From Coptis chinensis (lineage: Eukaryota; Streptophyta; Magnoliopsida; Ranunculales; Ranunculaceae), in the NCBI GenBank assembly GCA_015680905.1, contig CM027377.1:24638501-24702500 (forward strand): a stretch of DNA of 64,000 nucleotides. The letters are read 5' to 3'. Under the pieces are notes generated by a model. It did no database searches. It saw only the letters and a program-made list of their open reading frames with translations, and had not been told where the DNA came from. Made by a program: the position numbers and the translations under genes. Numbering within the stretch: the stretch's first letter is position 1; the number at the start of each line of letters is the position of its first letter. Positions 44,418-50,183 of this stretch are shown here, one piece after another.

Positions 44418-45248
44418 ATTTTTTTGTATGTCATGGAATGACATGTACTGAATAAATAGACTATTTTTCTTGATAAAAGGAAAATGTGATGGGTTATATT
44501 GGTGTCAAATGTCAACAACTTTTTTCTCTTTTCTTTTGAATGTAAAACTTTTTGAGCCAAACCTAAGACAATACGCTAAACATTTTTCTCTCTCTCTTTT
44601 TTTTTCGATAATCTAAAAAAAAAAAAAAAAATCTCTCTAAGAGTCTAAGTCGAGTTGCAAATCAATGAATATTGATGTTAGAACGAAACGACCTCAGAAT
44701 CACAGGAGGATCAGGAGGGGATATGTCAAGCTACTTTTGCAGAGTAACTTATCACAGGGAAGGCTATAGCTATTAATTACTAGAAGAGTCCTTGAGTAAC
44801 TACAAAACTAAACAGGAAAGGTTTCGTTACAAATCTGAAAAATGTAATCTCTTTTATGCTAAATGCTAATTCAAGTGAAAGAAAAAAATCATTCTGTAGC
44901 CGTTGGATATTGGATTCATTTTAATCTCCAGATCGATCAGATAAGTCACCCGAGAGATCGACTTCATTTCTTCCTCTTACTTGAAGACAACTTCAACAAC
45001 TTACGTACTTCATATCTTAACTCAATCTTAAACTTTGAATTTTAGTTTCAGTGTTACTGACTGTGGCACTGCATGTAAGACTTACTGCTAAATCAAATAA
45101 GCGTAAAAACATGCGAGCTACCATTTTCAGTGCTCATGAATGGTTAGATACTTAGAGGTCTGAAATTTTTCATATTTTGGACATTAGCATATTTTTAGAA
45201 CCAACATAGGTGATTAGACATACTTCCATAATATCACTACTCATATCA
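44418..45248. other. Intergenic DNA left of the CACTA element
   Basis: It holds the defensin-like 3' region and AATAAA signals (for example 44451-44456). From about 45150 there is a diverged copy of 43395-43450 (CATATTTTGGACATTAGCAT, AGAACCAACATAGGT). A poly-A run lies near 44617-44631. No further gene is supported. Confidence 0.5.
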
Positions 45249-46246
45249 CACTACGACATAAATGGCATTTTCCATCACTTAAAAAGTGATGTCAAAAGTA
45301 TAAGACATCACTTTTGAGAGTAATGTGAATGGTGGCAACGTAAAAAGTCGGGGTTTTCCACATCACTTTTTAAACCATGTCCACAAGTGATGTTACTTCA
45401 CATCACTTTTTAATTGATGTCCACAAGTGATATTATAACTTTGCATCACTTTTTAATCGATGTCCATAAGTGATGTTATAACGTTTAACATCATTTTTTA
45501 AGTGAAATCAATAAAGCTGATTAACATCACTTAGGAAGTGATATTTCATTCAGATTCCAAATTACGTGTAAAGTGATGTGAAATAACTCTATAAATCACT
45601 TTAAAAGTGATGTCCCATTTATCAAAATAATAATAAATAATAATAATAATAAAACAAAATTGCCAATATCATCCCAATATAATACCATTTTTCTCGTCAT
45701 TTATCATCAAATAAAGATGAAATGTATCTTAAAATCATATTCATCATACAAAAATCATCTCAAATTACAAATATTACACTATATACAAAAAATTGTAACG
45801 AGCCAACATATACCAACAAAATCTAATATGCAGTACCGAAATGAGCAAAAGAGAACCACAATCACCCAACCAAGAACCTATCACAGCCTGGCTTGATGCA
45901 ATTAATTTAATCCAAGAACCTATCACAGCGGGCCTAACAAATCACTCTGTTTTCTTTTTTTTGCAGTATGAAACATTGTACTAGAAAATCAATGCAAATT
46001 TTATAAAAGGAAAATAAACAGACGGAACATCCGCATAATATAGTACCTGAATGACAAAGAAAACTCTACAGAAGACAATTACTTGTGTTCAAGATCAGGT
46101 CCAGCCCTGTGCCAAAAGCTGGTTGGAGGTTGAGTTAAAATAAAAATGTTGTTGTCCATTTCCCTGCATCACTAGCGGAGTAATCTAAAACTTGTGTCTG
46201 CCCCAGAAAAAAACATTTAAATAGTTGTTAATGATTTGGGCAGTAA

Positions 46247-46335
46247 CACCAATAGCATGTAAGATGCACCAGTGTTTCAGGTGCACCAAACTCCAATAGC
46301 ATGTAAGCTGCACCAGTGCTTCAGGTGCACCAAAC
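46247..46335. repeat. Tandem duplication of about 43 bases
   Basis: Two units share CCAATAGCATGTAAG, TGCACCAGTG and TTCAGGTGCACCAAACTC. A second small array follows at about 46400-46515, built on CTTCAAATAATCCATxCCAACATCACAATTATTACAAAAG. Both lie inside the CACTA element, outside the gene fragments. Confidence 0.75.
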
Positions 46336-46726
46336 TCTTTTCCAATGGCAGCATTAACCCACTACAAATTAAAGGAACGACTTGACCCGACAGACGATTA
46401 TTACAATTGAAGCCTCTTCAAATAATCCATCCCAACATCACAATTATTACAAAAGAATCTACTTCAAATAATCCATTCCAACATCACAATTATTACAAAA
46501 GAAACCTCTTCAAAGAATCCCAATAGCCACACTTGGTATCAAACTTGAATGTTGAATGTCATCTCAAGTATTCATGATACCAAATCAATATATAATATGC
46601 TTAGTAATGTATATCTTAAGTTATAATACGCTTAAATTAACAATATACTTGGGATCTATAGAAGTATCTTTCTAAGTTCAATTTATTAATGAAACTACTC
46701 TACAAGAGAGACACATGAAAACACAC

Positions 46727-47112
46727 CTATTGTTGTGGGTAATTTCCATATCCAGGATAGGCTCCACCATAAGCATACATGTTAGGATCTTGAGCGGGAG
46801 GGGTATATCCGTAGGATTTGTAACCTAGCTTGGTTGTATCCATAATACCAAACACCATTCCACTAGTTTGGGTATGGTTGTGGCTGTGTCCACCCATCTG
46901 ACGTATCATGTAAATGCGTCAGATTAATATACATTCAAATATATTGATAAACAGGAAGAATGATTATAAACAAGCAAAGCAACAGTGAACTTGTTTGTTT
47001 GGAGGGCTACACCCCACCAGGAAAGTCTAATGTTTTGCCCTCCCAAAAGAGTTCCGTTTAACATAAGTGCTCTCCTTTGCACAAGCTCTACGTCACCTCT
47101 GCACAAGCTCAC
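46727..47112 (-). pseudogene. Captured RBP45/47-like C-terminal fragment
   Basis: Two blocks match the end of plant oligouridylate/RBP45-type RNA-binding proteins. Residues ALMLNGTLLGGQNIRLSW (47017-47070) are the end of the third RRM, with the RNP2-distal GGQNIRLSW motif. The Gly/Tyr/Pro-rich tail YKSYGYTPPAQDPNMYAYGG and AYPGYGNYPQQ ends at 46727. The frame is broken between them (SW is followed by an out-of-register stretch). The N-terminal RRMs are missing. The piece sits inside the CACTA element, downstream of the XBAT fragment on the same strand. Confidence 0.8.
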
Positions 47113-47273
47113 ACTTTAGCTGCACCTCTTTCTTGCAAAAGAAAAATGTGACCTTTTAGCCGCATGAAGTTGGTTAAGAGTAATATACATATACATTTTT
47201 TTCAAGTGAAATTGAAAAAATATTACATGGTCTGCTTTAATAAATCTATCGTGCCATTTTGAACCACCAAAAA

Positions 47274-47600
47274 TTAGATAATATAATTGGATATATATAT
47301 CATTTGATCCAAATATCCAATATCAGCAAGTGATGCTTTTTTAACACCATCAGAGTTTAACAGTACATGCTCTAAAGTAAGTTTAATCACATACCTTAAA
47401 GAATAGCCTGAAGTCTTTTCCAATGGTGATATCATGTGCCATAAGGAGCATGTAATTAATTTTAACACGAAATGAGACTACAACACAGTTTACCATTTCC
47501 TCGGATAGTTCCAGTTTCGGTAATAGTTTAAGCTGTCTTCTCAGATATATATTAAAAAAAACGTCATAAGTAAAAGGGCAGCAGCATATCATGAACATAA
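47274..47600 (-). other. Unassigned coding-like stretch between captured fragments
   Basis: The minus strand reads [35 protein letters not shown] and, in another frame, LEHVLLNSDGVKKASLADIG. It could be diverged intron or a third captured piece. I cannot assign it. Confidence 0.25.
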
Positions 47601-48506
47601 CTCTACCTATCAAATCGGTAGATGTGCCATAGTGAAATGTCACTACCGAGACGTTTGCTTGAATGTCGAGTAGTAATTGTACACAGTCAAAGTAACCATT
47701 CAATGCGGCCATATGAAGAGCTGTTATACCACCATCTGATGCTTTATTTACTAACTTAGACAGTGCACTGCAACAAATATATTAAACAAAATTTTTTAGG
47801 GGTAAGGAAAACTACTACAAGAAAATAAACTAATACCACAAAAAAGAAATCCTACAACTAGTGCTAAACAACAATCATAACATATATCTATATCTATAAA
47901 ATGAAACACCCACTCAAATTCATTGTAGTATATAAATCATCTATTAGAAAATAAGGCCACAAAATGAAAAGCAAAGTACAATACCATTAACCAAATTTGT
48001 TCTTTAAAACAGACCCATTGCCTCTATCACCATTGTTGGTCTGAGCACTCGTAACCTCATAACGTTCACTTGGTACGAAGTCTGCCACGACAAGTCTTAT
48101 GCATATCGTGGCCATTTTTACAATTTGCAAAATGAAGAGCAGTTCTTCCAATCGAGATAGTCCGCTTTCGAGTAACGACATATATTAAAAATCATTAGAT
48201 TTACCAAAAGGAAATGCCTCAATGCATAGGATATCACAAATATCAAAGTTTTACATAAACTAAAGACTGCATTTACATTGCTTTTTTGAACAGCTAGTAG
48301 AAGAGTCGCAGACAACTTCCCGGTGTCCATGCTCGCGACGCATGCATCAACGCAGTCTATGAAAACGGATACACTATTTCAATAACAATGTGTCTAATTT
48401 AACTTAAGAATCACTACAATTAAAAATAACCTCAATCCTACCTGCCCATAGTAATTCCTCGAATTCACATCTGCCCCATTCTCAAGTAACAATGCTACAA
48501 TCTAAT

Positions 48507-48508
<2 letters not shown>

Positions 48509-48572
<64 letters not shown>
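48509..48572. repeat. (TA)n microsatellite
   Basis: About 30 uninterrupted TA dinucleotides run through this segment. A shorter TA run lies at about 48942-48956, on the other side of the adjacent foldback element. This suggests the element inserted into or beside a TA-rich site. Confidence 0.9.
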
Positions 48573-48573
<1 letters not shown>

Positions 48574-48574
48574 G

Positions 48575-48945
48575 GCGAGGTTTTGTTTACCATACTTTTT
48601 ATACCATAGTTTATACCATACCCCATAACTTCACCTACAACGAGAATTATAACTTAGATTTGTGTGGATGTGTTCAACTAACAATGAAGATCACCTCTAT
48701 AAAATTTCAACTCATTTGATAATGTTTAACTATGTCAAAAGATGATTGCAAAATCGAATAATCTGAGCCGTTAAAAAAAATTCAAAGTTGACAATTATTT
48801 TTAACTAGAATAGAGATTTTCAAATGAGATCTATTTATGATTAGTAGATTATATCCACAAATTATTAGTCTTTAACTCATTTTGTAGGAGGGTGTGGTAT
48901 AAACTATGGTATAAAAAATGTGGTAAACAGAACCTGCTTTATATA
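48575..48945. mobile_element. Foldback MITE inside the captured XBAT intron
   Basis: Inverted ends of about 48 bases match: GAGGTTTTGTTTACCATACT and ATACCATAGTTTATACCATA on the left, with GGTATAAACTATGGTATAAA and GTGGTAAACAGAACCTGC on the right. It is non-coding. Both flanks are TA-repeat sequence, so the duplication cannot be defined. It is nested in the CACTA element. Confidence 0.75.
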
Positions 48946-50183
48946 TATATATATATGGGAGTTCAAAAACTACAATCTAACTACCAAGGCAATGATAATA
49001 AATAAATAATACCTCAGTGTGCCCTCTAGCAGCGGTGAAATGAAGAGGGGAATTATGACCACTAAATGTAGAGTACTTGGCAAGACATGGACTAAATTCC
49101 AGTAGCATCTTCGCTTCCACCAAATCGCCATCTCTGCCCGATACCAAATCTCCGACGATCGAAAGCATCCAAATGAATTCCCCATCACACTTAACTCACT
49201 CACTCACTGAGTCAAATGGAGAGTTGGGCTTGTGTTTGTTGAAAATGAAAATGAAAGATAGAGAGATCGGAACAACTCTACCTATTGCGGAGAGTAGCAA
49301 GGTTGGCTCAGAGGAACTGAATTACAACAGTTACAAGTAGTACATCAGAAGAAATCGACATAAATGATAACTCTGACCACTCAAAAATCTTTCAATGTTG
49401 TAATCGATTAATATCAAACTCGTTTGCACGTGGCAATCAATCTCCGATTTCAGTTCAATGACAGACTGTTAGGGTTTTGGAAAATAAAATACTGAAGATC
49501 ATCCCTAAAATCCCCAAAATTTAGAAGTGAGGGCCAGTTCCATTCTTAATTTTCTTCTTCGTATTCGTATGTATTATGTCTTATAAATTTATGGGCCAGA
49601 CCTTGCTTATGGGTTTAAGCCTTTTGGGTATTGTTCGCGGTTTTTTATTTTCTATTTTTCGTTTATGGGCGACTAGTCTAGCAAATCAGAGTGCACCCTG
49701 ATTCATTTCTATTTAACCTAATTTTTTAGATGGTCTAGCTTTTTCTAACTAATTAACTTAATTAAGAGGTATATTAATAATAACATTTCTAGAAGTCACA
49801 TTATTAGTGATTTTGAAAACTTGACAAAATCACTTTTAAAGTGATGTTGAATACATAAATATTACATCACTTTATTAGTGACACAGTGAGTGAACACCTT
49901 TAAAATGATGTTGAATACATAGATATTACATCACTTTATAAGTGACACAACGAGTGATGTAAAAAACTGTTACTACATCACTATCACGACATCACTAATT
50001 AAAATAATGTTGTACAACTCTACTATATCAATTTCTGAAATAAGTGATGTTAAAAAAAAAAATTGTGATAATTATTACATCACATGTTGAGAAAAGTGAT
50101 GTCATAGTTTTTTTTTATAACATCACTTCGCTGAAAGTGATGTAAAATTAGCGATATCATATGTCATATTTGTTGTAATGTCA

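Follow-up and report, generated by a model that had tools for sequence, protein, structure and literature searches.

A CACTA element of Coptis chinensis with host-gene pieces very probably captured in succession

Among the published cases compared, the closest to the element described here is Tgm-Express1, a 5.7-kb CACTA element of soybean for which the compared part of the account describes pieces of five host genes and chimeric transcripts (PMC1947982). The present element occupies positions 45249–50180 of a 64,000-nucleotide stretch of the Coptis chinensis genome (contig CM027377.1, positions 24,638,501 to 24,702,500, forward strand), referred to as the window. Like Tgm-Express1, as far as that account is compared, it is a CACTA element that holds several unrelated host-gene pieces with exons and introns kept; it differs in that the five soybean genes are other genes, and in that the compared account gives no copy without the last capture.

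Pack-TYPE elements, including Pack-CACTA, are similarly described as non-autonomous elements with CACTA ends that carry coding DNA, sometimes from several loci, and the compared part of the report on multi-locus elements argues for tandem insertion as the route of capture (PMC8903248). The window element is unlike the Pack-CACTA elements of that part in that its last piece lies inside a piece captured earlier, of which an uninterrupted relative is known (PMC8903248). Maize Helitrons, in the portion of the literature compared, likewise capture gene pieces stepwise and lose internal sequence, as the window family has done (PMC3288121). The window family differs from them in consisting of CACTA elements. 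Helitrons are not known to have inverted-repeat ends or target duplications. A limited literature search found no case equal to stepwise capture by a CACTA element, and no claim is made that such a case is unpublished.

The window element belongs to the CACTA type and holds captured pieces of host genes in a single orientation. Comparison with its relatives makes it very probable that a Pack-CACTA-like, non-autonomous element collected these pieces successively, and that most of its cargo is passenger DNA in decay.

Ends, recurrence and past mobility

The boundaries, ends and repeats of the element are as follows.

45246–45248: left target-site duplication TCA, read from the sequence
45249–50180: complete CACTA element, non-autonomous, spanning 4932 bp with its nested miniature inverted-repeat transposable element (MITE), delimited by its ends, target-site duplications and the end-to-end copies L009 and L010
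45249–45271, plus strand: left terminal inverted repeat, CACTACGACATAAATGGCATTTT
45274–45625: left subterminal repeats of CATCACTT / AAGTGATGT type, repeat families D1, D5, D7 and D8
48507–48954: nested MITE with 46-bp inverted repeats (48578–48623 / 48890–48935), within TA repeats
49796–50150: right subterminal repeats, repeat families D4, D8, D9 and D12
50158–50180, minus strand: right terminal inverted repeat
50181–50183: right target-site duplication TCA, read from the sequence

The left end reads CACTACGACATAAATGGCATTT from 45249, and the right end, read inward, is CATTACAACAAATATGACATATG, up to 50180. The left end thus starts with CACTAC, and the right ends start with CACTAC in six of the eight displayed, with CACTAT in L010 and with CATTAC in the window. 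The subterminal repeats are both direct and inverted, as is typical of CACTA elements. The interior also holds two tandem repeats, at 46245–46332 (44 bp, two copies) and 46394–46531 (46 bp, three copies).

In the 935.6 Mb of genome searched, the 22-base end had 129 matches with at most two mismatches and its reversed control had none, so that the end sequence is not a product of chance. L009 (C1) and L010 (C4) are complete copies with the same cargo as the window element, 89–93% identical by stretch. Matching 3-base duplications flank seven of the ten copies displayed (the window copy and nine others), L016, L017 and L019 not being judgeable: TCA in the window, AAA in L009, AAT in L010, CAG in L012, ACT in L013, AGA in L015 and, given a shifted-end reading, ATG in L014. 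Identical cargo and joins are therefore found at three places (window, L009 and L010), each with a different 3-base duplication, and elements of the window type have moved as a unit in the past. An autonomous partner was not found among the 150 of 2715 Transposase_21 (PF02992) candidates scored, which were compared by eye with part of the 129 end matches. The original prediction is borne out as to its CACTA ends, its TCA duplications and the subterminal repeats, and the ends and cargo recur elsewhere as a unit, the related copies including two with the ankyrin cargo and others, such as L012, without it.

Captured pieces and their likely donors

Between the subterminal repeats, the cargo is arranged as follows.

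46689–47097, minus strand: RBP45-like piece (RRM3 exon end, intron, C-terminal tail), by DNA match to L020
47098–47353: stretch separating the RBP45 and reticulon pieces, present in other family copies too
47354–47601, minus strand: second part of the reticulon piece (intron 1 end, exon 2, intron 2 start), likely donor L042 1654–1905
47605–49243, minus strand: XB3-type ankyrin piece (57 bp upstream of the ATG, then exons 1–5 and their introns as far as a splice donor), split by the MITE, likely donor L011 4080–5327
49248–49387, minus strand: first part of the reticulon piece (exon 1 end, intron 1 start), likely donor L042 1500–1640

Ankyrin profiles match the window DNA itself (expectation value, E, 2.1e-9, six-frame scan). 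With 47602–48480 as the query, all seven candidates were scored, giving four long matches (window, L009, L010 and L011) and three weaker loci. L011 has strong ankyrin profile matches; its likeness to the element is confined to about 47599–49243, introns included, and beyond the matched part further open stretches read like the remainder of an ankyrin-RING protein. Kimura two-parameter (K2P) distances from L011 to the ankyrin pieces of the three copies are 0.034, 0.036 and 0.072, and L011 is the likely donor. For the RING, a PF24921 match (E 0.025, from a partial L011 exon only) lies far below the cut-off. The donor protein presumably resembles Arabidopsis XBAT33 more than XBAT32. An intron-less XB3-type ankyrin gene copy, apparently a processed one, lies at L021 and C1:37549546-37550154 and carries a TAG in frame.

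The reticulon piece is split, its two parts flanking the ankyrin piece in the window and lying contiguously in L012 and L042 (C7:95157096-95157504). The L012 version of the reticulon exon matches PF02453 (E 3.1e-8), and L042 has reticulon matches over profile positions 108–146 and 2–114, in two frames; L042 is the likely donor because of the contiguous parts and these profile matches. The reticulon identity of the window piece comes from its DNA identity with L012 and L042 together with the profile match of the L012 exon, and K2P distances between donor and reticulon pieces are 0.037–0.081 (four copies, two parts). When the window element was scanned with profiles in six frames at E ≤0.01, neither a reticulon nor an RRM match came up, the pieces being short and decayed.

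The RBP45 piece matches L020, which bears three RRM stretches in one frame, at about 85% of DNA positions. Most or all of 46689–47097 recurs at 11 places besides L020 (window, L009, L010 and L012–L019, with L019 partial) among 25 matches, and a shorter RBP45 tail occurs at five further places among the same matches. K2P distances from L020 are 0.104–0.165 at ten of the 11 places, L019 being left out, and L020 is the likely RBP45 donor. L018 has a longer RBP45 piece than the others, and element ends were looked for around it and not identified. Near this longer piece, L018:7816-8754 (minus strand) shows callose-synthase-like open stretches, with a weak FKS1_dom1 match below the cut-off (E 1.1e-4).

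The earlier reading of an XBAT32-like ankyrin fragment with introns thus keeps its ankyrin repeats and its introns, given the L011 match and the profiles, and probably loses the XBAT32 label; the RBP45-like RRM end and tail stand through the match to L020. The original prediction counted two captured genes, and there are three, the reticulon piece around the ankyrin piece having been overlooked. All pieces lie on one strand, as had been proposed, here the minus strand; neither the XBAT nor the RBP piece extends beyond the element ends, and likely parents of all three pieces are present in the same genome. Being non-autonomous, with three host-gene pieces whose likely donors are L011, L042 and L020, the element answers to the description of a Pack-CACTA element.

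Other copies carry further cargo. A selenoprotein K piece lies at L012:3751-3861 (PF10961, E 2.4e-9); the family search for selenoprotein K gave three places (L012, C4:789989 and C6:84882721), and C4:789196-790220, 93% identical to L012 over 1 kb, is the likely donor. L013 (2530–4605) holds a piece 88% like L056, and L014 is 94% like L013 here; the piece is called CONSTANS-like because L056 has a CCT match above the cut-off and a B-box match just below it. L013 also has a weak Rubicon-homology match below the cut-off (PF13901, E 9e-4), and a Rubicon-homology piece is probable in L013 and L014. The interior profile scans covered L012, L013 and L015 and left out L016, L017, L018, L019 and L049. 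On the minus strand of the element they gave selenoprotein K in L012, one CNNM match below the cut-off in L015 and nothing in L013; the opposite strand of these three interiors gave no families in nine frames, and no profile matched the plus strand of the window element. Adjoining the L012 element, L012:7160-9813 (minus strand) contains putative retrotransposon-like polyprotein stretches.

Order and route of capture

Three joins bear on the order and route of capture.

47596–47612: reticulon/ankyrin join, where the splice donors of both genes are alike
49238–49256: ankyrin/reticulon join, with a 6-base local duplication and 13 reticulon-donor bases missing
49382–49387: reticulon/CACTA join with a short shared sequence (CAAAAA type), where L012 keeps about 2.2 kb

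L013–L019 have the RBP45 piece and, in the fetched loci, no L042 match; L012 has RBP45 and reticulon; the window, L009 and L010 have all three. The reticulon sequence of L012 and L042 is uninterrupted at the point where the ankyrin piece stands in the window, L009 and L010, which identifies the ankyrin piece as a later arrival, inserted into the reticulon piece. About 2.2 kb of interior sequence, and also a stretch of reticulon, are kept in L012 and missing from the window group. L051 has the reticulon parts and the left end without RBP45, and may be read as a deletion derivative. In unrooted trees of the ends, the window, L009 and L010 split from six others among nine right ends (ultrafast bootstrap 100) and from eight others among 11 left ends (ultrafast bootstrap 74).

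The joins are the same in the window, L009 and L010 apart from point differences. The left join, taken on the window's plus strand from reticulon into ankyrin, is ...AAC-TCTACCTATC..., identically in L009 and with one base different in L010. Here the donor ankyrin gene reads AACTTACCTATC, and the reticulon donor reads AACTCTACCTAT at its own splice donor about 40 bases off, so that the join reflects either a short tract copied from the reticulon splice site or the change of a single base in the splice donor of the ankyrin gene. At the right join, AAAATG is duplicated locally, with one base changed in L010, and bases 1641–1653 of L042 are absent at the ankyrin insertion.

In the comparison of copies, an RBP45 piece is widely common in the family, a reticulon piece is present in some copies, and a 1.25-kb piece of the ankyrin gene lies in the middle of the reticulon piece, a form found at three places. 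The ankyrin step probably began with a break inside the element, repaired by copying a stretch of a gene that today lies on a different large contig; such a repair would have left the 13 missing bases and, at the joins, the few bases that are shared or duplicated. Transposase supplied from elsewhere would later have spread the ankyrin-bearing product. The MITE is confined to the window copy: it is not in the sister copies L009 and L010, and its relatives occur at many places in the genome.

Tandem insertion, in which a pair of adjacent elements, their inner ends lost, moves as a single unit with the intervening DNA, has been proposed for Pack-TYPE elements including Pack-CACTA in the compared parts of two reports (PMC8903248, PMC13317346), and it could account for the older RBP45 or reticulon steps. 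As the source of the ankyrin piece it is unlikely: no CACTA ends adjoin that piece, which is bounded by two halves of one reticulon piece that, 13 bases aside, directly adjoin each other in L012 and L042. A last piece inside an earlier one, with an uninterrupted relative, does not fit the model. Delivery of the ankyrin piece as the cargo of another mobile element (a Helitron, a Pack-MULE or a retrotransposon) inserted in the reticulon piece would agree with an insertion with a small deletion and with the existence of the intron-less copy L021 elsewhere, yet it is very unlikely, the introns being kept, the match to L011 running along the full length, and no extra ends, poly-A or target duplication being visible by eye; moreover, the seven ankyrin search candidates included no free-standing element with the same boundaries.

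Several observations weigh against successive capture as set out above. The six-frame scan of the window element gave ankyrin repeats only and no transposase, and no RING match came up in three frames of L011 at E 0.001, leaving the completeness of the ankyrin parent unproved. With L020 and the RBP45 pieces only about 85% alike, the true donor may be a relative since lost. The short shared bases at the joins allow several readings. The other branches of the end trees are mixed (ultrafast bootstrap 35–96 for left ends and 30–95 for right ends), and the K2P distance of 0.037 between L010 and the donor for reticulon part one does not exceed that for the ankyrin piece, so that divergence alone cannot order the reticulon and ankyrin steps.

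State and meaning of the cargo

With exon joins guided by the intron-less copy L021, conceptual splicing gives an ankyrin frame that is open in the donor and broken in the window, L009 and L010. Exons differ from the donor by 3.2% in L009, 4.1% in L010 and 10.1% in the window; for non-exon sequence the figures are 3.4, 2.7 and 2.8%. The window excess lies in three patches (about 48100–48190, 48290–48340 and 49120–49165, in ankyrin exons 4, 3 and 1), found in this copy only, with dense complex differences, often at CAG/CTG and often with CG gained. Of the multi-base changes in the window, 11 of 15 overlap CAG or CTG against 4.2 expected, in a test that followed sight of the pattern. Miscalled bases at methylated CHG sites or real change may lie behind the patches, and a limited look at the literature found no paper on such miscalling; the window frame is not to be over-read, and the frames of L009 and L010 are broken independently of it.

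Gene conversion from L021, L024 or L031 was rejected for these patches, the window exons being less like these paralogues than the donor is. Elsewhere in the element and in the other copies, ten of 25 multi-base changes fall at CAG/CTG against 3.1 expected; a general process targeted to CAG/CTG is not claimed, because nine of these ten involve one or more C>T or G>A changes of the kind that methylation decay produces.

Cargo acting as a functional chimeric gene, or under selection as a regulator of its parents, would be in keeping with the common orientation of the pieces, with the retained ATG and most of the printed splice sites, with the many 21-base stretches identical to the parents (in the window copy, ankyrin 394 of 1171, RBP45 52 of 389, reticulon part two 40 of 228) and with the compared part of the Tgm-Express1 account, in which captured pieces are spliced into chimeric transcripts (PMC1947982). 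The frame, however, is broken in all three copies, which makes a chimeric protein unlikely; the exons of L009 and L010 diverge about as non-exon DNA does; and the window copy and L009 no longer have the exon-4 acceptor. The ratios of non-synonymous to synonymous change (pN/pS; L009 0.61, L010 0.44, window 0.43) are no proof of selection because they include change on the donor lineage. A selected function is thus quite unlikely and the gene combination itself is probably without one, though the cargo, with these 21-base stretches still shared, may serve as a source of small RNAs against the parents. The single transcript acting on both parents, suggested in the original prediction, is hypothetical.

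The six recognised cargo genes of the family (RBP45, reticulon, XB3-type, selenoprotein K, CONSTANS-like and Rubicon-homology) share one orientation, the minus direction of the element, for which the two-sided chance probability is about 0.03 in a post hoc count of a small, unsystematic set. As a tentative suggestion, CACTA interiors might gain copies of distant genes through break repair, with joins guided by short matches such as like-oriented splice donors, and repeated rounds might yield same-orientation mosaics. Gene capture by CACTA elements is known, and the window element is a well-resolved example of that process. How cut-and-paste transposons capture genes is unsettled in the literature compared; in this family the ankyrin step can be read at base level because a single assembly holds the likely donors, a relative free of the interruption and three descendants.

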